From Acetobacterium sp. KB-1 (GTDB lineage: Bacteria; Bacillota; Clostridia; Eubacteriales; Eubacteriaceae): a stretch of DNA of 64,000 nt. Under the pieces are notes generated by a model, which worked only from the letters and a program-made list of their open reading frames with translations, had not been told where the DNA came from and made no database searches. The position numbers were made by a program, and so were the translations under genes. This document shows positions 21,883 through 46,033 of the stretch, piece after piece (position 1 is the first letter of the stretch; every line of letters starts with the position of its first letter). The stretch covers positions 3,209,176 to 3,273,175 of the forward strand of contig NZ_CP030040.1 of NCBI RefSeq assembly GCF_003260995.1, read 5' to 3'.

Positions 21883-24597
21883 CTAGAAATTACCGGCGGT
21901 GCGCAGTTCGGACTTTAAGATTTCCTGGGCTGCCGTTTTAACAGCATCTTCAATGCGGTCGTAGGTTGAGATGACCTTGATGCCCTTGCTTTCCAGCCGT
22001 TTGGTGGGCAGATCACCAATGCGCATAGTGATGGCGCCGTCGCAGTCATTTAGAGCTTTTAGAATGGTGCCGATCTTATCTTCTTTTTCGTCGCATTCTT
22101 CGGCGCCCGTGCAATACTTGCCGATTACCCGTTTTTCTTTAAACCGGACCTCATCGTCAAGGTAGTCATAGATATAAAGCTCTGAAGCCTGGCCGAAATG
22201 CTGGTCCACCAGCATCCCGCCTTTAGAGGTGATCGCAAAGCGCAATCCCGTTGGTGCTGCCAGAATCATTTCATCTTTTTTAGCTTCAGTTTCCCGGAAA
22301 TTCAGGGAGATATCACTATCCAGTTTGCCGATGGCATCGGCCCGGCATTGTTTGCAGTGATACATCTGTTTTAAATGAACCCCGCATTTATCGCGAATCG
22401 CATTAATTTCGTGGTTGGTGGCAATTTGCAGATCTTCAAAGGCGGAACCTTTAACCGGAATCAGGGGCATCACATTGGAGATAAAGCAGCCCAACTCTTT
22501 TACCGTTTTGACCACTTCTTCGATGTGTGTATCATTGATTCCCATCAGGGTGACAGTATTGATTTTGACGATTACCCCTTCATCGATCAGGAGCTTGATC
22601 CCTGAAAGCTGGTTAGCCAGTAAAATAGAGGCACCGGCTTCGCTACGGTAGCGGTTCCCCATAAAATCGACATGTTTGTAGATCTTGGCACCGATGGCCG
22701 GGTCAACCGCATTGACGGTGACGGTAACGTGGGAAACACCCAGTTTTGCCAGTTCTTTGGCATAGTAGGGCAGCATTAAACCATTGGTGGAGACGCAGAA
22801 GGTAACAGAGGGGTCATAGTCATGGATCAGGGTCAGGACCTTTCTCGTTTCTTCAAAGTTTGCCAGGGCATCTCCGGGGCCGGCAATTCCGACGACGGTG
22901 AGGTTTTCCACCTTTTCTTTAACCAGTTTATATTTTTCAAAGGCCGCTTCCGGGGAAAGAATTTCAGTAGTCACGCCGGGACGGCTTTCATTGGGGCAAT
23001 CAAATTTACGAACACAGTAGTTACACTGAATGTTGCATTTAGGAGCAATGGGGAGGTGCATCCGGGCGTTTTTCTGGGAGGCACCGCAGCTATAGCAGGG
23101 ATGATTGGCGGTTTTTTCTTCAATGGTTTGGGCTTGGGGTGTTAACGGGTTATTTGTCTTTATTTTTTCCAGCACTTTCATGTTAGCTTCCGTTTCCGGC
23201 TCTAATCCGTATTTGGATTTTGGTCCTTCATTATAGTAGGTGTTATATAGGGTTTCCCGGAAACCGCCTTCCACCGCTTTAAGAATGGTGTTGGTGATCA
23301 GGTCCAGGAGCACCTGGGAACCTTCATAGCCCAAGGTCCGAACCCGCTGGCCGCCGACGCGGTCATGGATTGGAAAAGCACAGCGGATGAGTGGAATCCC
23401 GTGTTTTTCTTCAATCCGGCGGCCGTCGGAATTTCCCAGCATCAGGTTAGCACCGAGTCGCAGGGCTTCTTCTTCAATGGTTTCAAAGTCGACATCATTT
23501 AGGATCACGTAATTGTCAACAAAAAGAACATCGGCCAATTTGGAAAGCTCGGCTTCGATTTTTCCTTTAAGCTGGGGACAATTGGAACCAGTAGCCGCGA
23601 TCACCGGCATCACCCCATTTTCACAACAGAGTCGGACTGCCGAAACGACAAAATCCGGTTCACCGAAGATGGCAATGCGACCCAGGGCGTTGTATTTATG
23701 GGAGTCGACCATGCCATCAAGGTAACGACCGCGTTCCTTAGCAATTTTTTCAGGAATGGCTTTTTTTGACAATTCAGCTAAGAGATCGATTAAGGCATCA
23801 GTATCACGGAGTCCCATCGGTAGGTTCAGGCGTTTGTAAGGAACCCCATAGTTTTCATACAGGTAAACCCCGGGAGATTCATCGGGCTTGATGGTATCAG
23901 AGATTTCGATGGTGGCCCGGGCGCCAGCCATTTTCTGGATTTCCGAAATCGGGGTACCATGCATCGGCAAACGATAATAACTGCTCTGATGGACGCCGTC
24001 GAGATTTTCGGAAAGATCTGGCAAAAGAATATATTCCAGTCCAAACTGGTCCAGTAGATCGATTAAATAACGGGTATCCGCCGGGGAAATCATCGTGGTG
24101 ACGATATTGACCTTATTGTGTTTGGTGGCGTCCATCTCAACATGGGAGACAATCGCTCGCAGCGCCCGGGTAAATCCTTCAAATTGGGTACCGCCGTACC
24201 CAGCCGATTTAACGGGAATAATTTTTACCGTTTCGTCAGGATGAGCGGCGTAAAAATTCTTGATGATATATTCAATATCTTCACCAATGGTTTCGGCCAG
24301 ACAGGTGGTCGAAACGCCGATGACCTCAGGTTCATACAATTTAATCAGATTTTCCAGCCCGATAATCAGATTTTTCTCACCGCCGTAGACAGTGCCTTCT
24401 TCAGTGAGGGAAGAAGAAGCAATATCAACCGGTTCATTGTAATGAGTGGCCATGTGGCGGCGGATATAGGTGCTGCATCCCTGGGAACCATGGAGGATAT
24501 TCATACATTTTTGAATACCGTAGAAGGCATTGGCGGTTCCCATCGGCATGCACATTTTACAGGGATTGACATTTAGGTTGACTAAATTTTTAGACAT
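21883..24597 (-). CDS. nifB: NifN-NifB fusion with NifX-like tail
   Basis: Builds the nitrogenase cofactor. 904 residues in three parts: NifN-like scaffold subunit (about 1-470, partner of NifE); a radical-SAM NifB (about 495-770) with cluster cysteines CNIQCNYC near residue 525 and the start NHPCYSCG; and a NifX/NafY-like domain (about 785-895, GLRFAITSKGGMLVDQHFG). NifN-B fusions are known from Clostridium pasteurianum. Fusing core synthesis (NifB) to the scaffold would pass NifB-co directly. Overlaps nifE by eight bases. Confidence 0.93.
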   Translation of the reverse strand: MSKNLVNLNVNPCKMCMPMGTANAFYGIQKCMNILHGSQGCSTYIRRHMATHYNEPVDIASSSLTEEGTVYGGEKNLIIGLENLIKLYEPEVIGVSTTCLAETIGEDIEYIIKNFYAAHPDETVKIIPVKSAGYGGTQFEGFTRALRAIVSHVEMDATKHNKVNIVTTMISPADTRYLIDLLDQFGLEYILLPDLSENLDGVHQSSYYRLPMHGTPISEIQKMAGARATIEISDTIKPDESPGVYLYENYGVPYKRLNLPMGLRDTDALIDLLAELSKKAIPEKIAKERGRYLDGMVDSHKYNALGRIAIFGEPDFVVSAVRLCCENGVMPVIAATGSNCPQLKGKIEAELSKLADVLFVDNYVILNDVDFETIEEEALRLGANLMLGNSDGRRIEEKHGIPLIRCAFPIHDRVGGQRVRTLGYEGSQVLLDLITNTILKAVEGGFRETLYNTYYNEGPKSKYGLEPETEANMKVLEKIKTNNPLTPQAQTIEEKTANHPCYSCGASQKNARMHLPIAPKCNIQCNYCVRKFDCPNESRPGVTTEILSPEAAFEKYKLVKEKVENLTVVGIAGPGDALANFEETRKVLTLIHDYDPSVTFCVSTNGLMLPYYAKELAKLGVSHVTVTVNAVDPAIGAKIYKHVDFMGNRYRSEAGASILLANQLSGIKLLIDEGVIVKINTVTLMGINDTHIEEVVKTVKELGCFISNVMPLIPVKGSAFEDLQIATNHEINAIRDKCGVHLKQMYHCKQCRADAIGKLDSDISLNFRETEAKKDEMILAAPTGLRFAITSKGGMLVDQHFGQASELYIYDYLDDEVRFKEKRVIGKYCTGAEECDEKEDKIGTILKALNDCDGAITMRIGDLPTKRLESKGIKVISTYDRIEDAVKTAAQEILKSELRTAGNF

Positions 24598-25939
24598 TTT
24601 TCATACCTCCTATGACTTCCCAGACAGGACTGTTCATTGACAGATTGATTTCTGAGGCGAAGTTCAGGGTGCCTTCGTAGCCTGCCAGGGGATGCTTGCG
24701 TTCATGGTTATGATCACAAAAGGCGATGCCCAGTTTATAGGCCAGCGGCCGTTCCTTGACGCCGCCTACTAATATATCGGCTCCCATTTCTTTCATAAAG
24801 GCTTCCAGTTCAGCCGGGTTGGCGTCGTCTAAAATGACGGCGTCTTCGTCGACCAGATGTTGGATGACTTCATAATCATCCTTGCTCCCGGTTTGGGTGC
24901 CGACCATCACGGTATTCATGCCAAATTCGTGAAACTGGCGGATCAGGGAGATTGCTTTAAAGCCGCCGCCGACATAGATAGCGGCTTTTTTTCCTTCAAG
25001 ATTATTACGATATTTATTTAAAAGAGGGATGACTCTATTTTTTTCTTCTTCAATAAAGGCTTTGGCTCGCGTAATGACTTCTTTATCACCGACGGCATAG
25101 GCAATCCGCATCAGTGAATCGGAGGTGTCGGTCACACCAAAAAAACTAACTTTGATAAAAGGGATTGAGAAAACCTCTTCCATCTGTTTAGCCAGGTAGG
25201 TCATCGAACCGGCACATTGAACCAGATTGAGTTGGGCCGCGGGGGCTTTTTTGAGATCTTCGACTTTGGCATCGCCAGTAATATTAGCAACCACTTCGAC
25301 GCCGATTTGTCGTAAATAATTTTTAATAATCCACATTTCCCCGGCCAGGTTAAAATCGCCGAGAATGTTGACACCGTGCGTTTTTTTAGGTAAGAATTTG
25401 GGGGTAACCAGGCTCATAATAGCGTTGCAGGCCATCTTATAGCCGGTTTTTTTGGTTCCCGAGAACCCTGGTGATTTAACTGGAATCACACGAATTTGGT
25501 ATTTTTCTTCGGCTTCGCGACAGACAGCGTCAATGTCATCACCGATAACACCAACAATACAGGTGGCGTAAATAAAAATAACTTTGGGTGAGTGGATAGC
25601 CATGACTTCATCAACAGCAGCAGCTAATTTCTTTTGTCCACCAAAGATAACATCGCGTTCGCGTAGATCCGTTGAATAACTGTTTCGATAGCCTTCTTCG
25701 TCACTGGATAGACTGCCGCGAATATCCCAGGTATAGCTGGCACATCCAATCGGGCCATGGATAATATGGAAGGCATCGGTGATGGGGTTCAAAACAACCC
25801 GGGCCCCACAGAAAACACAGGCTCGTTGACTGACGGCCCCTGAGACACTTGCTGACTCACACTTGATTCCGTCTCCGCTGCATTCCGAAAAACGGATTGA
25901 CTGGGCTCTTTCTGGTAAAATTGCCGCATCATTTTTCAT
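24590..25939 (-). CDS. nifE: FeMo-cofactor scaffold subunit
   Basis: 449 residues; with the NifN part of the downstream fusion it forms the scaffold on which FeMo-co is matured. Conserved cysteine regions ACVFCGARVVLNP, HGPIGCASYTWD and TCIVGVIGDDI are visible. ATG at 25939 has AAAGGAGG at the right distance; an in-frame TTG at 25957 lies before that site. Located 49 bases after nifK. Confidence 0.93.
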   Translation of the reverse strand: MKNDAAILPERAQSIRFSECSGDGIKCESASVSGAVSQRACVFCGARVVLNPITDAFHIIHGPIGCASYTWDIRGSLSSDEEGYRNSYSTDLRERDVIFGGQKKLAAAVDEVMAIHSPKVIFIYATCIVGVIGDDIDAVCREAEEKYQIRVIPVKSPGFSGTKKTGYKMACNAIMSLVTPKFLPKKTHGVNILGDFNLAGEMWIIKNYLRQIGVEVVANITGDAKVEDLKKAPAAQLNLVQCAGSMTYLAKQMEEVFSIPFIKVSFFGVTDTSDSLMRIAYAVGDKEVITRAKAFIEEEKNRVIPLLNKYRNNLEGKKAAIYVGGGFKAISLIRQFHEFGMNTVMVGTQTGSKDDYEVIQHLVDEDAVILDDANPAELEAFMKEMGADILVGGVKERPLAYKLGIAFCDHNHERKHPLAGYEGTLNFASEINLSMNSPVWEVIGGMKNV

Positions 25940-25988
25940 TTTACAGCCTCCTTTCAAATAAAGGGGAGGAAAACCTCCCCCCCAATAA

Positions 25989-27353
25989 TTACATAATCAT
26001 TTCCATATCTTCATCTGCACAGTCACGATCCTGACGATCCATGAGGGCATTTAAGATCATTTCGGCTAAACGCATAGCACCCTTATATCCGACCAAAGGC
26101 AGGTAAGAGTGAACATAGCGGTCAACGATGGGGAAGCCGGCGCGTACTAAAGGAATATCTTCGGCTTTGGCGACATATTTGCCATGGGTGCCGCCGATCA
26201 TCAGATCGACACTGTCGTTTTTAATCCATTGGTGGAGTTCAAACAAATCAGCATTCCCTTTAGCGGTACAGCCTTCCACACCAAACTTTTCAAAAAGTTC
26301 ATTGGCTTTTGCTTCAAATGTTTTACCGGGTGTCCCGGTGACCAGATATTTTGGAATCATACCCATTTCTAAAGTGAATTGTGCCAAAGCTAAGACGGTA
26401 TCGGGATCGCCGTAAATGGCAACGGTTTTATTTTGAGAATACTTATGTGAATCTAATAAGATATCGACTAATTGACCACGTTCTTCTTCGATGATGTAAG
26501 GAACCTCGTTTTTAGAAAAACGATTTAACGCCATGATATATTGATCCGTTAACTCAATACCAATTGGCAACGGAAGCGTAGCAAAGGGAACCTTACATTT
26601 GGTTTTTAAAGATTCAGCAGGTGGTGTCGAAGTGATTTCACCTAATGCCAAGGAGAGCTCGCAATTTCCAAGATCTTTGATATCATCAATGGTGGTTCCG
26701 CCTTTAGGATACATGGTGTATTCACCGGTCATTGGTGAGTCCATAACACCACTGGTGTCTGGCAGCATGGTATACTTAACCCCCATCAGGGTCATCAGTT
26801 TTTTCATTTCGCGCATGTCGCCAGGATTGACAAAGCCGGGGAAAAGAGCCAATTTGCCATTTTTTTCACCGGTGTTTACTGATAAGTAATGGATTAATCC
26901 CGTGATCATGCTGGAAAATCCAGTGATGTGTGACCCGACATAACTTGGGGTGTTGGCATGAACAACGATTTTTCCTTCGGGAATCTTCGCATCAGTGATG
27001 TAAGTAACAAGGTCATCGCCGATGGTTTCACTTAAACAGGTCGTATGAACGGCAATAATATCGGGTTCATAAAGGTCAAAGATATTTTTTATGGCTGTTT
27101 TTAAATTTGAACCGCCGCCAAATACGGAAGCACCTTCGGTAAATGAACTGGATGCAGCAATGGCCGGATCTTTAAAATGTCGCGTTAAAAACATTCGATG
27201 GTATGAACAACACCCTTGTGAGCCATGGCTGTGCGGCATGCAATTATGGACGCCCAGCGCAGCATACATGGCGCCGACCGGTTGACATGTTTTTAGTGGG
27301 TTAATGCGCAAAGCAGATCGTTCGGATATTTCTTTTGGTGTAACATCTAACAT
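25989..27353 (-). CDS. nifK: Nitrogenase MoFe protein beta subunit
   Basis: 454 residues. P-cluster cysteines lie in NPLKTCQPVGAM, HGSQGCCSYHR and TTCLSETIGDD. The N-terminus is short, lacking the extension seen in proteobacterial NifK, as in clostridial enzymes. The start codon overlaps the nifD stop by one base (TAATG), coupling equal translation of both subunits. Electron transfer from NifH passes through the P-cluster at the D/K interface. Confidence 0.95.
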   Translation of the reverse strand: MLDVTPKEISERSALRINPLKTCQPVGAMYAALGVHNCMPHSHGSQGCCSYHRMFLTRHFKDPAIAASSSFTEGASVFGGGSNLKTAIKNIFDLYEPDIIAVHTTCLSETIGDDLVTYITDAKIPEGKIVVHANTPSYVGSHITGFSSMITGLIHYLSVNTGEKNGKLALFPGFVNPGDMREMKKLMTLMGVKYTMLPDTSGVMDSPMTGEYTMYPKGGTTIDDIKDLGNCELSLALGEITSTPPAESLKTKCKVPFATLPLPIGIELTDQYIMALNRFSKNEVPYIIEEERGQLVDILLDSHKYSQNKTVAIYGDPDTVLALAQFTLEMGMIPKYLVTGTPGKTFEAKANELFEKFGVEGCTAKGNADLFELHQWIKNDSVDLMIGGTHGKYVAKAEDIPLVRAGFPIVDRYVHSYLPLVGYKGAMRLAEMILNALMDRQDRDCADEDMEMIM

Positions 27354-28939
27354 TATTCCATACCTCCTAAATTGCCAATTAATGTCGGCTCGCTTTTCCA
27401 GGGAGCTTGAACTAAACTAAAAGCTGGTGTATTAACAGCTAAGGTTACATCTCTGGCAAAATTTAATGCACCTTTAAATCCAGCATACGGACCGCTGTAG
27501 TCATAGGAGTGTAATTGTCGCGATGGCACGCCTGACCGTTGAACAATATATTTATCCTTAATCCCAGAAAAGAAGATGTCTGGTTTTAATAATTTTAAAA
27601 ATGCTTCGGTTTCAAACTGGTTATAGTCATCGGTAATCATGGCCTTATCGGCGATATCGGCCCATAAACCATCATAGGATTCAATCGGTAAACCGGCCTC
27701 TTTTAATTCTTTTATGCGTTCTTCGGTGTGGAAAGTCCGGTATTTAGCAGGATCTTTTACAACCGTGATGCTTTCAATGTTTTTAGAATCGGCATCCATT
27801 TTAAGCGGTAGCACTTGACGACCTTCGTAATCATCACGATGGGCAAATTCATAACCGGCTAAAATAACTTCGACACCGAGGCTTTTTAATAAGTTAATAT
27901 AATGGTGAGTTCTTGAACCACCAACATAAATGGCGGCAGTTTTGTCTTTCAGCATCGATTTGTAGTAAACCATTCCAATTGCAATTTCTTCTTCTTCATC
28001 AGCAATGACTGCTTCTGTTTTGGCTGTTAAAGCAGGATCGTTGAAAAATGCGGCAACATCTCTGAGTGACTGCTTAATCCCTTCGATGCCAATAAAATTG
28101 ACCTTAAGCCATTCGGTTCCATATTTCGTCTTTAGCATTTCAGCAATATAATTAATGGAACGATGGCATTGAACAAGATTCAGGTCGGCCGTATGCGCAT
28201 TTTTCATTTCTTCGTAGCTCCCATCACCAGTCATGACCGAGACAATGTTATAACCGATCCGTTTAAGAACCCGGCAAATTTCCCAACCATCACCACCGAT
28301 GTTGTATTCCCCTAAAAGATTAATGGAGTATTTTACCGGTTTTGCGTCACCGGTACCAATAACATTTTTCATTAAACCGTTATTGGCAATATGATGTCCC
28401 CCGGATTGACTAACGCCTTTGTAACCCTCACAACTGAAGGCAACTACTTTAATATTGTACATTTCTTCAGCTTCAGCTGCGACGGCGTGGATATCATCAC
28501 CGATCAGTCCGACTGGACACGTTGAAGCAATCATAATACAGGCGGGATCAAAGATTTCAACCGCTTCTTTAATTGCTTTTTTTAATTTCTTTTCACCACC
28601 AAAGACAATGTCGGTTTCTTGCATATCCGTCGAAAAACAATATTCTAAAAAGTTCTTCGTGTTTTCATCGCCTTTGGCTTTATTTCGTCGGGTTCCCCAG
28701 GCGTAGTAACTACATCCGATCGGGCCATGAACGATTTGGACAACATCTTTTAGTGGGCCAATAACAACCCCTTTACATCCTGCATAACAGCAACCACGGT
28801 TGGTCATGATTCCCGGGATGGCTCGAGTATCAGCGGCAATGACATTCGGTTCACCGTCTTCAATTTGAATAACATGTTCTTTTCTGTTTTTATAGAGTTT
28901 AGAGCTATATTGATCGAGCACTTTATCTCTTGAATCCAT
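27353..28939 (-). CDS. nifD: Nitrogenase MoFe protein alpha subunit
   Basis: 528 residues; holds the FeMo cofactor. Cofactor ligands are present: Cys in LNLVQCHRSINYIAE and His in RQLHSYDYSGPYAG; the catalytic region GVSQSGGHHIANN carries the Gln and His near the active site. P-cluster cysteines are in RGCCYAG, GPIGCSYY and STCPVGLIGDD. An insertion of roughly 50 residues (about 375-430) marks the clostridial (C. pasteurianum-like) group. It is a molybdenum rather than V/Fe-only type because NifE/N/V partners are present and no G-subunit gene occurs. ATG 28939 follows AGAGGTG. Confidence 0.95.
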   Translation of the reverse strand: MDSRDKVLDQYSSKLYKNRKEHVIQIEDGEPNVIAADTRAIPGIMTNRGCCYAGCKGVVIGPLKDVVQIVHGPIGCSYYAWGTRRNKAKGDENTKNFLEYCFSTDMQETDIVFGGEKKLKKAIKEAVEIFDPACIMIASTCPVGLIGDDIHAVAAEAEEMYNIKVVAFSCEGYKGVSQSGGHHIANNGLMKNVIGTGDAKPVKYSINLLGEYNIGGDGWEICRVLKRIGYNIVSVMTGDGSYEEMKNAHTADLNLVQCHRSINYIAEMLKTKYGTEWLKVNFIGIEGIKQSLRDVAAFFNDPALTAKTEAVIADEEEEIAIGMVYYKSMLKDKTAAIYVGGSRTHHYINLLKSLGVEVILAGYEFAHRDDYEGRQVLPLKMDADSKNIESITVVKDPAKYRTFHTEERIKELKEAGLPIESYDGLWADIADKAMITDDYNQFETEAFLKLLKPDIFFSGIKDKYIVQRSGVPSRQLHSYDYSGPYAGFKGALNFARDVTLAVNTPAFSLVQAPWKSEPTLIGNLGGME

Positions 28940-28954
28940 TTTAATCACCTCTTT

Positions 28955-29338
28955 CTAAAATGCATCCGCATTTTTTTCGCCACTTCGTACCCGAATGGAC
29001 TCTTCAATTGGGATGACGAAAATTTTACCATCACCGGGATTTCCGGTCTGATTGTTGTCAATAATAATAGAAACGACCTTCGCGACATCTTCATCCTCAA
29101 CGATTAATGTAAAAAATCGTTTTGGAATTAAGCGGGATGATTCAGTTAAGGATTCACCAATCGGTGAGATGGGCATTTCTCCTGCGTCAACGATATCCTG
29201 AACGATGGATAGATCAATCGTTTTTTTTCCGCGTCCGAGAACCTTTAAACAGGTAAAAGCGGGATAGCCATCTTTTACAAGGGCTTCTTTGGTCTGATTT
29301 ACTTTATTCTGTCGAATAATTGCCATAACTTCTTTCAT
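28955..29338 (-). CDS. nifI2: Nitrogenase-specific PII protein NifI2
   Basis: 127-residue PII-family protein. The C-terminal signature GDGKIFVIPIEESIRVRSGE is clear; the region around the T-loop is longer and different from GlnK (DLSIVQDIVDAGEMPISP). With NifI1 it inhibits nitrogenase when ammonium is available, as shown in methanogens, by binding NifDK in response to 2-oxoglutarate and ATP. Position between nifH and nifD is diagnostic. Confidence 0.92.
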   Translation of the reverse strand: MKEVMAIIRQNKVNQTKEALVKDGYPAFTCLKVLGRGKKTIDLSIVQDIVDAGEMPISPIGESLTESSRLIPKRFFTLIVEDEDVAKVVSIIIDNNQTGNPGDGKIFVIPIEESIRVRSGEKNADAF

Positions 29339-29352
29339 ATCAATTCCTCCTT

Positions 29353-29679
29353 TTAAAGGCCCGGTTTTCCAGTACTGATTGTATACGCTTCTTCTACCGG
29401 AGAAATAAAAATACGACCATCTCCAAAAGTACCATCCTTGCCAGTTTTTGCATTTTTCATGATTATTTTAACAACATCATCTTTGTCTTCATCGTTGACG
29501 ATACACAGGAGCATCACTTTTGGAATTTCATCATAGTGAACGTCTCCAACCTTGATCCCTTTTTGTTTTCCACGTCCATAAACATCTAATTTCGTAACCG
29601 CTGAGTAATCAGCGGATAACATTTCGGATAATACAACCCCTACTTTTTCGGGTCTGATAATTGCTCTGATCATTAACAT
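29353..29679 (-). CDS. nifI1: Nitrogenase-specific PII protein NifI1
   Basis: 108-residue PII-family protein with FGDGRIFISPVEEAYTISTG near the end and a T-loop GRGKQKGIKVGDVHYDEIPK that lacks the classical uridylylation tyrosine context. Works with NifI2. A second in-frame ATG lies six bases downstream of the chosen start; AAGGAAG upstream fits the first. Confidence 0.92.
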   Translation of the reverse strand: MLMIRAIIRPEKVGVVLSEMLSADYSAVTKLDVYGRGKQKGIKVGDVHYDEIPKVMLLCIVNDEDKDDVVKIIMKNAKTGKDGTFGDGRIFISPVEEAYTISTGKPGL

Positions 29680-29707: not shown

Positions 29708-30556
<849 letters not shown>

Positions 30557-30579: not shown

Positions 30580-30830
30580 TGCAAAAAGTAAAGAAGCCTT
30601 TGCCTTTCACAAAAGCGTAAAAGGTAAGACTTCCTTGTCTAAAAAAACTTATTTTGTTTTGCATAAACGAAAAGATCTTAATCGGCTGCATTGATTGAGC
30701 AGCAAATTAAGACCTCATTGTCTAAATAGAGTAGGGAATGATGGGAACAAAAAAGGTCTCAGCGCTTACCTAATTGTAAAGAGCTGAGACCACATTGTCT
30801 TTGTCAAATCCGTATTGCATTGTTTTCTAT
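30580..30830 (-). promoter_or_regulatory. nifH leader with three tandem hairpin/terminator units
   Basis: On the minus strand, three small hairpins with a four-pair stem AGAC/GTCT and a six-base loop occur at 30787-30800 (loop AATGTG), 30710-30723 (AATGAG) and 30627-30640 (AAGGAA). All loops have A at position 1 and G at position 4. The 3' arm of each overlaps the first arm of a larger hairpin followed by T: 30755-30791 with six T; 30674-30714 with TTTTCGTTT; 30593-30633 with TTTACTTTTT. This resembles ANTAR antitermination sites. The first of the two hairpins normally seen in ANTAR sites could not be recognised with confidence. Confidence 0.65.
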
Positions 30831-30836
30831 GGGCTT

Positions 30837-30865
30837 ATTATCCATGGAATAGGAGGATAAGTCAA
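30837..30865 (-). promoter_or_regulatory. Sigma-A type promoter of the nif operon
   Basis: Minus strand -35 TTGACT (30860-30865), 17-base spacer, -10 GATAAT (30837-30842); start near 30830, about 300 bases before nifH. No sigma-54 (GG-N10-GC) promoter was seen here. Confidence 0.65.
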
Positions 30866-31099: not shown

Positions 31100-32050
31100 T
31101 CAGCCGCAGCTTGAACAGGAAGAACAGTCGCCGCAGGATTTTTTCATTGGATCATGAACCAGAATAGCCCGGATCGTGGCGGTTTGTAAATCGACCGTTA
31201 CGATTTCATCCTGGAGAATCTCCATTTTACCATCGGTGAAGATGATCGTCATTGGTTCGGGAACCATTACGTCTGGGTCCAGAGTGCCTGGTTTCATCAG
31301 GGGCTGAATAAATTTTTTGCCTTCCGGTTCAGTGATCATCAGGCCGTTATTGCCGGTGATCAGGGATCGGATCACCCCGGTAGGCGAATAGTTGACTGAA
31401 TTTTCGTCACAATTAATGCCGTGGGCAGTGCTGTCATAGGCGATCACAATCCCGATCGGGGTGACAATGGGTTCGGGCAGGGCGGGTTCAAAGCTTTTCA
31501 GCTTGCCGTTTTCATATAAGGAAAAACCGTAACGCACCTTCACCAGGCCGTCGGGGCTATTGAGTTCAATGGTTTCCTGAGGCCACATGGTCAAACTTTT
31601 CAGGGCACCGCTTTCATAAAAGCAGAGGCTTACAATCTTGGTTGAAAAGGAACCCACAGCCAGATCAAAGTCTATCGGTTTAGCCAGGGTATATTCATCA
31701 TTCTCGGTCCAGTAGCCGTTGATTCGGCCATTTAGCGGAAATAAACGGTGGATTCGACCGTTTTCATAAAAACTGATCCGTTCGGCGGACAGGCTCCCAA
31801 GCGAGGTGATGACTGCGGTGGCGCTTTCCAGATCGATGCTTTTGATCTGGCCGTTTTTGAAAAACTCCAGCGCTAACCCTTCCCGATTTCTCAGGTTTGA
31901 GGGGCCGTAGTTGGGAACCAGAATGCCCACAGGGGTATTGATGGTGTTGGGCTCGTCGAAGGCACAGCCTTTTGGCGAACCATCGGTATAGGTTTCAAAA
32001 AAGGTGATCCCGGTGAGGGGGCCATATTTTTGCGTTTGGCAGGTTGACAT
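31100..32050 (-). CDS. Nif-associated repeat protein with Cys-rich tail, unknown function
   Basis: Not recognised as a named family. 316 residues, predicted soluble and rich in beta strands. It contains about five spaced units of the type F(Y/F)xNGxxxxL: FFKNGQIKSI, FYENGRIHRL, FYESGALKSL, LYENGKLKSF and a weaker YSPTGVIRSL, at roughly 40-60 residue spacing, somewhat like MORN/YwqK-type repeats. The end CGDCSSCSSCG has four cysteines that could bind metal or an Fe-S cluster. It lies 12 bases after the AnfO-like gene in the same direction and upstream of nifH, so a role linked to nitrogenase is likely but unproven. Confidence 0.6.
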   Translation of the reverse strand: MSTCQTQKYGPLTGITFFETYTDGSPKGCAFDEPNTINTPVGILVPNYGPSNLRNREGLALEFFKNGQIKSIDLESATAVITSLGSLSAERISFYENGRIHRLFPLNGRINGYWTENDEYTLAKPIDFDLAVGSFSTKIVSLCFYESGALKSLTMWPQETIELNSPDGLVKVRYGFSLYENGKLKSFEPALPEPIVTPIGIVIAYDSTAHGINCDENSVNYSPTGVIRSLITGNNGLMITEPEGKKFIQPLMKPGTLDPDVMVPEPMTIIFTDGKMEILQDEIVTVDLQTATIRAILVHDPMKKSCGDCSSCSSCG

Positions 32051-45734: not shown

Positions 45735-45810
45735 GATCTCGTAGCTCAGCTGGCAGAGCACTACCTTGACATGGTAGGGGTCGATGGTTCAAGTCCATTC
45801 GGGATCACCA
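45735..45810 (+). tRNA. tRNA-Val (anticodon GAC)
   Basis: 76 bases including encoded CCA. Acceptor GATCTCG/CGGGATC, D arm GCTC..GAGC, anticodon stem CTACC/GGTAG with loop TTGACAT (GAC), T arm GATGG-TTCAAGT-CCATT, discriminator A. Confidence 0.96.
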
Positions 45811-45824
45811 TTTATTAAGTATTG

Positions 45825-45850
45825 AAGCCTCTTTCGGAGGCTTTTTATTT
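45825..45850 (+). terminator. Intrinsic terminator after tRNA-Val
   Basis: AAGCCTC / GAGGCTT with a TTTC loop, followed by TTTTTATTTT. Confidence 0.88.
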
Positions 45851-46033
45851 TACTCTTTTTTAAGAATTCACGCACGTTTCCCGCAATCATTTTTACACTG
45901 TCTACAAATATCAGCAGATGATGTCGGTATATCAGGAACACATTAATAAGAACCGGTATTAGGTTTAATAGGGGGATTAAGAGTTAAGTCTTTTGACTGC
46001 CCTGTTTTTGTAACATTTTATATTGAATTTTGA

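Follow-up and report, generated by a model that had tools for sequence, protein, structure and literature searches.

A probable three-step attenuator of single hexaloops in the nifH leader of Acetobacterium sp. KB-1, a likely target of a glnA-linked ANTAR protein

Acetobacterium sp. KB-1, an acetate producer, carries three hexaloop attenuators upstream of nifH on the minus strand, and this arrangement raises the question of how transcription would pass three stops to reach the nitrogenase genes. The control of nif in clostridia and acetogens is less studied than the NifA/σ54 systems. A precedent is offered by the ANTAR antiterminators, among them NitR of Clostridium saccharobutylicum, which is described as inducing GS/GOGAT genes upon nitrogen limitation (PMC6316151). 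The determinants reported for the RNA targets of EutV are an A at loop position 1, a G at position 4 and AC/GU closing pairs (PMC3369931). The original prediction for this locus, made from the letters of the DNA, was that as many as three terminators in succession control nif transcription and that an ANTAR protein releases them; judged from sequence, no other reading accounts better for the anatomy described below. Here, we describe a computational analysis of this leader in its genome and its relatives. We present evidence that the nifH leader is probably a three-step attenuator built from single hexaloops, which would likely be released under nitrogen limitation by a NitR-like ANTAR protein encoded next to glnA.

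The window, that is, the whole stretch of 64,000 nucleotides that was analysed, contains the following features, listed in the direction of transcription.

30837..30865, minus strand: predicted sigma-70 promoter, TTGACT-17-GATAAT, ending 36 nt before hairpin 1
30807..30825, minus strand: 5' block AAACAATGCAATACGGATT, near the transcript start, conserved in an alignment of 14 leaders
30787..30800, minus strand: predicted antiterminator hairpin 1, AGAC-AATGTG-GTCT, alone -2.2 kcal/mol
30755..30791, minus strand: terminator stem-loop 1, GTCT arm common with hairpin 1, -19.5 kcal/mol
30749..30754, minus strand: U-tract 1, a T-rich tract after terminator stem 1
30710..30723, minus strand: predicted antiterminator hairpin 2, AGAC-AATGAG-GTCT, alone -2.2 kcal/mol
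30674..30714, minus strand: terminator stem-loop 2, GTCT arm common with hairpin 2, -21.3 kcal/mol
30665..30673, minus strand: U-tract 2, TTTTCGTTT, a T-rich tract after terminator stem 2
30627..30640, minus strand: predicted antiterminator hairpin 3, AGAC-AAGGAA-GTCT, alone -2.3 kcal/mol
30593..30633, minus strand: terminator stem-loop 3, GTCT arm common with hairpin 3, -18.9 kcal/mol
30583..30592, minus strand: U-tract 3, TTTACTTTTT, a T-rich tract after terminator stem 3
29708..30529, minus strand: nifH, ATG at 30529, first gene of the controlled operon; NifH relatives found
28955..29679, minus strand: two P-II genes, nifI1 and nifI2 by position, PF00543 in both, 3' of nifH
25989..28948, minus strand: two nitrogenase component 1 genes, nifD and nifK by position, PF00148 in both
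21883..25957, minus strand: nifE (named from its translation alone) and a NifN-NifB fusion

The fusion is a single reading frame of 904 aa (21883-24597, minus strand) with PF00148, PF04055 and PF02579, and a 316-aa protein with MORN-2 repeats (31100-32050, minus strand) adjoins the leader on its upstream side.

The three AGAC-N6-GTCT hairpins that had been claimed for this leader are present as AGACAATGTGGTCT (30800-30787), AGACAATGAGGTCT (30723-30710) and AGACAAGGAAGTCT (30640-30627), all on the minus strand, and the further claim that each 3' arm opens a larger hairpin ending in T is borne out by three terminator stems with their T-rich tracts. The hexaloops have A1 and G4 at 3/3 sites, AC/GU closing pairs (AGAC/GTCT) and overlapping intrinsic terminators. 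The predicted promoter would place the start of nif transcription at about 30829-30831, some 30 nt before hairpin 1; its form, TTGACT or TTGACA separated by 17 bp from GATAAT, is present in 11 of 14 Acetobacterium nifH leaders. The 19-nt block at the transcript start is partly kept even in the leaders L023 and L024 and has no clear hairpin.

Each attenuator region folds better than 200/200 of its own shuffles (z -3.4, -5.5 and -3.3), as does the whole 301-nt nifH leader against 100/100 of its own (z -7.7). With the terminators at -19 to -21 kcal/mol and the small hairpins at about -2 kcal/mol, a small hairpin would win only if it were held. The pattern AGACANNGNNGTCT occurs six times in the 3,988,268-base genome, three of these in the nifH leader, and its backwards control occurs five times; the 14-mer is therefore not enriched genome-wide, and it is the cluster of three that is unusual. 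From the genome-wide rate, a Poisson estimate puts three matches within a single stretch of 174 nt at about 2e-8 for the genome as a whole.

A close NifH is present in 18 of 40 genomes of the family. Conservation of the loops in related nifH leaders had been set beforehand as a test, and it was found: a scan for a hexaloop with an overlapping terminator scored in every one of 14 Acetobacterium leaders, with 35 sites in total, as compared with 5 in 280 dinucleotide shuffles (the set omits L012, which nearly duplicates L011, as well as L022, which has no leader owing to a contig end). At site 2, AGAC and G4 are invariant in 14/14 leaders, and at site 3 GAC, A2 and G4 are invariant in 14/14 and the 5' arm nearly so; the invariance of G4 at these two sites comes from an alignment made without selection for it. 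Site 1 is unaligned in L021 and has three pairs only in L023 and L024. The claim that A1 and G4 are kept stands for the window but has to be relaxed at position 1, which is G in 8 of the 35 orthologous sites, as counted with a pattern that allowed A or G there, required G at position 4 and omitted L023 and L024. A second nifH-type gene, about 65% identical, is found in five Acetobacterium genomes (L026, L029, L031, L033, L034), and the leaders of these paralogues have their own single hexaloop attenuator about 95 nt before the gene. The stem of the paralogous hexaloops, AATAAC/GTTATT, is unrelated to AGAC/GTCT.

An ANTAR protein is a prerequisite of the predicted mechanism, and the KB-1 genome encodes two (PF03861). 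The first is EutV-like and is located in an ethanolamine cluster with EutB. In the three leaders of this cluster, a long P1 hexaloop is followed by a linker of 4-5 nt and by a P2 hexaloop overlapping a terminator, which makes them classical dual targets. A dual-hairpin filter with A1 in both loops gave zero matches in 12 ANTAR loci, as G is the first base of the second eut loop; the printed leaders show the duals. The second ANTAR protein is NitR-like and its gene lies directly behind glnA, a linkage repeated at 18 further Acetobacterium loci. We infer that these proteins are orthologous to C. saccharobutylicum NitR, to which they were likened by glnA linkage and not by NitR sequence. The best solved relatives of the glnA-linked protein are Rv1626-type 1s8n and EutV 6wsh.

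The glnA leader of KB-1 itself contains a single GAAC-AAAGGC-GTTC hexaloop whose 5' arm lies within a terminator. A single GAAC-AANGGC-GTTY hexaloop precedes glnA at 15/19 Acetobacterium glnA-nitR loci and is missing at 4/19, including L154, which is cut by a contig end. The strict attenuator scan found just one of these sites (L157), and a two-arm test was added because the terminator there uses the 5' arm, which the strict scan misses; with it, 14 of the 15 hexaloops have a terminator using one arm (the 5' arm in 13, the 3' arm in L157, none in L158). Two geometries are therefore present, the terminator taking the 3' arm in nif and mostly the 5' arm in Acetobacterium glnA.

Other Firmicutes also have single-hexaloop attenuators, ahead of either nifH or glnA. 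In a further set of 79 nifH-type leaders, comprising 10 Acetobacterium paralogues as well as other matches of at least 200 nt (2 were skipped), 25 have at least one attenuator, against 2.5% of 790 shuffles; the matches in L027, L105 and L080 and the first site of L057 are probably due to chance. The glnA leaders of other genomes score in 16 of 34 cases, against 4.7% of shuffles, and here L240 and two L258 sites are probably chance matches. ANTAR is present in 40 of 50 other genomes, and a nifH attenuator was found in 17 of 39 assessable ANTAR genomes versus 1 of 10 without ANTAR (one-sided p 0.05). Lengthening the leaders adds an attenuator in one more genome without ANTAR (L088), and this association is supportive but weak and borderline.

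A wider nitrogen regulon is suggested by the KB-1 genome, in which 18 further pattern places were examined. Nine have a competing terminator. For five of the nine, a gene begins no more than about 200 nt downstream; these genes encode two class-III aminotransferases, an amino-acid permease, a member of the ornithine-cyclodeaminase family and an amidohydrolase. The nine places with no terminator were dropped, as were L166, L170, L185 and L197, which have a terminator but are located within a gene or have no close downstream gene start. Raw pattern rows were not above the backwards control (18 versus 11 and 18 versus 16), so that the five putative members rest on the terminator and the position before a gene. 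When regulon patterns were sampled in the genus, one matched 2/19 genomes and a second 7/19, the latter giving 10 matches where the backwards control gave 1.

The element thus resembles an ANTAR target, but the original prediction had noted the lack of a clear first hairpin (P1), and this bears directly on whether it could function. For EutV, neither hairpin is described as dispensable, and induction is reported to fall drastically with a linker of 3 or 14 nt (PMC3369931); a +20 nt linker is reported to abolish it, and the same source describes a single hexaloop as the minimal binding unit, yet P1 as needed for antitermination (2022 EutV structure paper). Since EutV needs both hairpins at close spacing, a single hairpin might not suffice, and the nifH leader could instead be a canonical dual-hairpin element with a cryptic P1, supplied by the 5' block, which is conserved before site 1, or by the preceding hexaloop. 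A clear dual hairpin before nifH of Clostridium paridis (L044; short linker, one terminator, 177 to 139 nt before the gene) lends some weight to this reading, and that leader is a possible intermediate between the single and dual designs. We nevertheless consider a cryptic P1 improbable. A search for an [AG]NNG hexaloop within 40 nt upstream of each site gave a P1 of at least 4 bp at 0/37 Acetobacterium nif sites and at 3/3 eut controls of the KB-1 genome; elsewhere it gave 0/5 paralogue sites, 0/17 glnA sites, 0/5 other own-genome sites and 1/21 other nif sites, the last being the real dual of C. paridis. At 3 bp the counts were 1 in Acetobacterium nif (1.7 expected from shuffles), 0 in the paralogues (0.3), 3 in other nif (2.3), 1 in glnA (1.8) and 1 at other own-genome sites (0.6). 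An [AG]NNG hexaloop hairpin of at least 3 bp before site 1 was absent from every Acetobacterium nifH leader scanned, and the next nif hexaloop is 63-69 nt off, far beyond the linkers that work for EutV.

The position of the promoters argues in the same direction. Promoters predicted from consensus for the first hexaloop of 60 leaders reach a score of at least 9 in 41 (shuffles 12.6), ending less than 18 nt from the hexaloop in 13 (shuffles 2.8), and a score of at least 11 in 8 (shuffles 0.24); in 5 leaders such a high-scoring promoter has a near-consensus -10 box 5-17 nt before the hexaloop (shuffles 0.06). As a transcript begins about 7 nt after the -10 box, these leaders would have no room for P1. 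The comparison of leaders thus indicates that P1 is genuinely absent across a whole class of them, and that the nif element is not a textbook dual-hairpin ANTAR element.

A second alternative is that the leader holds three plain intrinsic terminators acting with no regulatory protein, the small hairpins being by-products of terminator sequence. Although the terminators alone explain the folding energies, the pattern of conservation makes this very unlikely. The terminator stems vary with compensating changes, double changes being found in 8 of 14 consensus pairs of terminator 1 and in 6 of 18 of terminator 2, while G4 and the 5' arm, which are dispensable for the terminator stem, stay conserved. 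Moreover, the arrangement is rare in shuffled leaders, and the hexaloop is seen again, on different stems, ahead of further nitrogen genes.

Which of the two ANTAR proteins would act on the nif hexaloops is suggested by eight genus mates that have them: each yielded one ANTAR match, the glnA-linked one (one of these genomes is 85% complete), so the glnA-linked protein is the likely partner. The part of the original prediction that called for an ANTAR protein is upheld, but the likely candidate is a pseudo-receiver protein rather than a phosphorylatable response regulator. The phospho-acceptor position is Asn in 19/19 Acetobacterium glnA-linked ANTARs. Of the proteins encoded behind glnA elsewhere, 3 of 33 have Asp there, compared with 13/13 ANTARs without a nearby glnA motif (the 33 exclude L218, with no glnA motif in its flank, and L209, with glnA on the other side). 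Without this Asp, the protein probably answers to a regulator that is not a histidine kinase, perhaps to glutamine synthetase itself. The RNA contacts have also diverged. The position of EutV Tyr164, a residue described as stacking on loop G4 (2022 EutV structure paper), is His in 19/19 Acetobacterium proteins and His in 25, Phe in 6 and Tyr in 2 of the 33 from other genomes. With EutV numbering mapped from the alignment, R142 is replaced by L, M or I, K143 mostly by G and Y164 by H in the Acetobacterium NitR-like proteins. These altered residues, like the two-hairpin data for EutV, speak against the mechanism proposed here, but may equally reflect adaptation to single hexaloops.

Alternatively, the hairpins might be targets of the EutV-like response regulator encoded in the ethanolamine cluster, with the adjacent kinase phosphorylating it; this is the remaining ANTAR protein of KB-1 and keeps EutV-like residues and the phospho-Asp. 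We find this hard to credit, as the leaders of its own cluster are dual hexaloops and the eight related genomes keep the nif hexaloops with the glnA-linked ANTAR alone. Finally, some other releasing factor (an RNA-binding protein, a small RNA, a metabolite or translation of a leader peptide) using the same switch hairpins is most improbable, given a loop that fits the ANTAR code and no Rfam family in the nifH leader at gathering score.

The two Rfam matches that reached gathering score anywhere in the window both lie close to 45.8 kb. One of them, HPnc0260 (antisense RNA; 45735-45907, 62.3 bits, cut-off 59), overlaps tRNA-Val on the opposite strand and is perhaps a chance match to the tRNA-Val complement. 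At a lax threshold the nifH leader gave five weak matches, the best being DUF805b on the opposite strand (30709-30737, plus strand, opposite hairpin 2; 20 bits, cut-off 35.6, E 0.0055), a match probably due to the palindromic nature of hairpin 2.

For the preferred reading, a serial attenuator of single hexaloops released by the NitR-like protein, we infer that the ANTAR protein binds and antiterminates, that nitrogen is the signal, that glutamine synthetase is linked to the switch and that the stops act multiplicatively, as follows. RNA polymerase would start about 30 nt before hairpin 1 and meet three intrinsic terminators in series; in the default state each would fold and transcription would stop. 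Under nitrogen limitation, the ANTAR protein would bind the six-base loop (A or G at position 1, G at position 4) as the hairpin emerges and keep the 3' arm of the AGAC/GTCT hairpin, so that the terminator could not start and polymerase would read through. Three serial stops would multiply termination, making the switch steep, and each would be governed by one hexaloop without a recruitment hairpin (P1), unlike the targets of EutV, NasR and AmiR. The mechanism has a general parallel in BglG, LicT and SacY, where a protein-stabilised RNA likewise excludes a terminator; these belong to another protein family and use a larger, asymmetric hairpin. The direction of control proposed here is taken from NitR of C. 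saccharobutylicum (PMC6316151).

The dual RNAs of EutV, NasR and AmiR, as described in PMC3369931 and PMC8934654, share with the nif element the A1/G4 hexaloop, the AC/GU closing pairs, the association with nitrogen genes and a hairpin that is mutually exclusive with an intrinsic terminator. The nif leader differs in having one hairpin per terminator, often a G at position 1, three units in series and a likely partner without a phospho-Asp. NitR shares the tie of an ANTAR protein to ammonium assimilation and antitermination on nitrogen limitation (PMC6316151, PMC4676874), and is reported there for GS/GOGAT; the present analysis adds a sequence link to nif and other nitrogen genes and describes an RNA target. 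The actinobacterial ANTAR-target RNAs likewise have hexaloops with A1 and G4, but by definition consist of two stem-loops joined by a linker of 2-25 nt (PMC8164766), which leaves single hexaloops outside.

Predicted ANTAR control of nitrogenase, namely in Pelobacter carbinolicus (PMC3369931, PMC8934654), and NitR control of ammonium assimilation are thus already known. A literature search, which subscription papers mostly lay outside, found no description of single-hexaloop ANTAR attenuators or of such a nif leader in Acetobacterium. Within that scope, we likewise found described neither the one-hairpin architecture that we predict and its series of three before nifH, nor one genome apparently splitting dual targets of a phosphorylatable ANTAR from single targets of a glutamine-synthetase-linked one. 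Published searches, in the parts accessible, used a two-hairpin model and would have missed a one-hairpin class; since 'most' matches in PMC3369931 are said to have two stem-loops, some single ones may be in its tables.

Taken further, these observations may point to a second ANTAR code in Firmicutes, a proposal that we hold to be evenly balanced: phosphorylation-independent, glutamine-synthetase-linked ANTARs, mostly with His or Phe for the loop-stacking Tyr, would read single, often promoter-proximal hexaloops lacking P1 and would control a nitrogen regulon that includes Acetobacterium nitrogenase through three serial switches. If this is true, glutamine synthetase status would be wired directly to nif transcription elongation. 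Natural leaders without room for P1 make its necessity directly testable, and KB-1 itself provides a comparison, with dual (eut) and single (nif, glnA) targets in one genome alongside two distinct ANTAR proteins. For clostridia and acetogens, the analysis thereby names a candidate nitrogen-fixation switch, a protein that may operate it and a connection to glutamine synthetase that can be tested.
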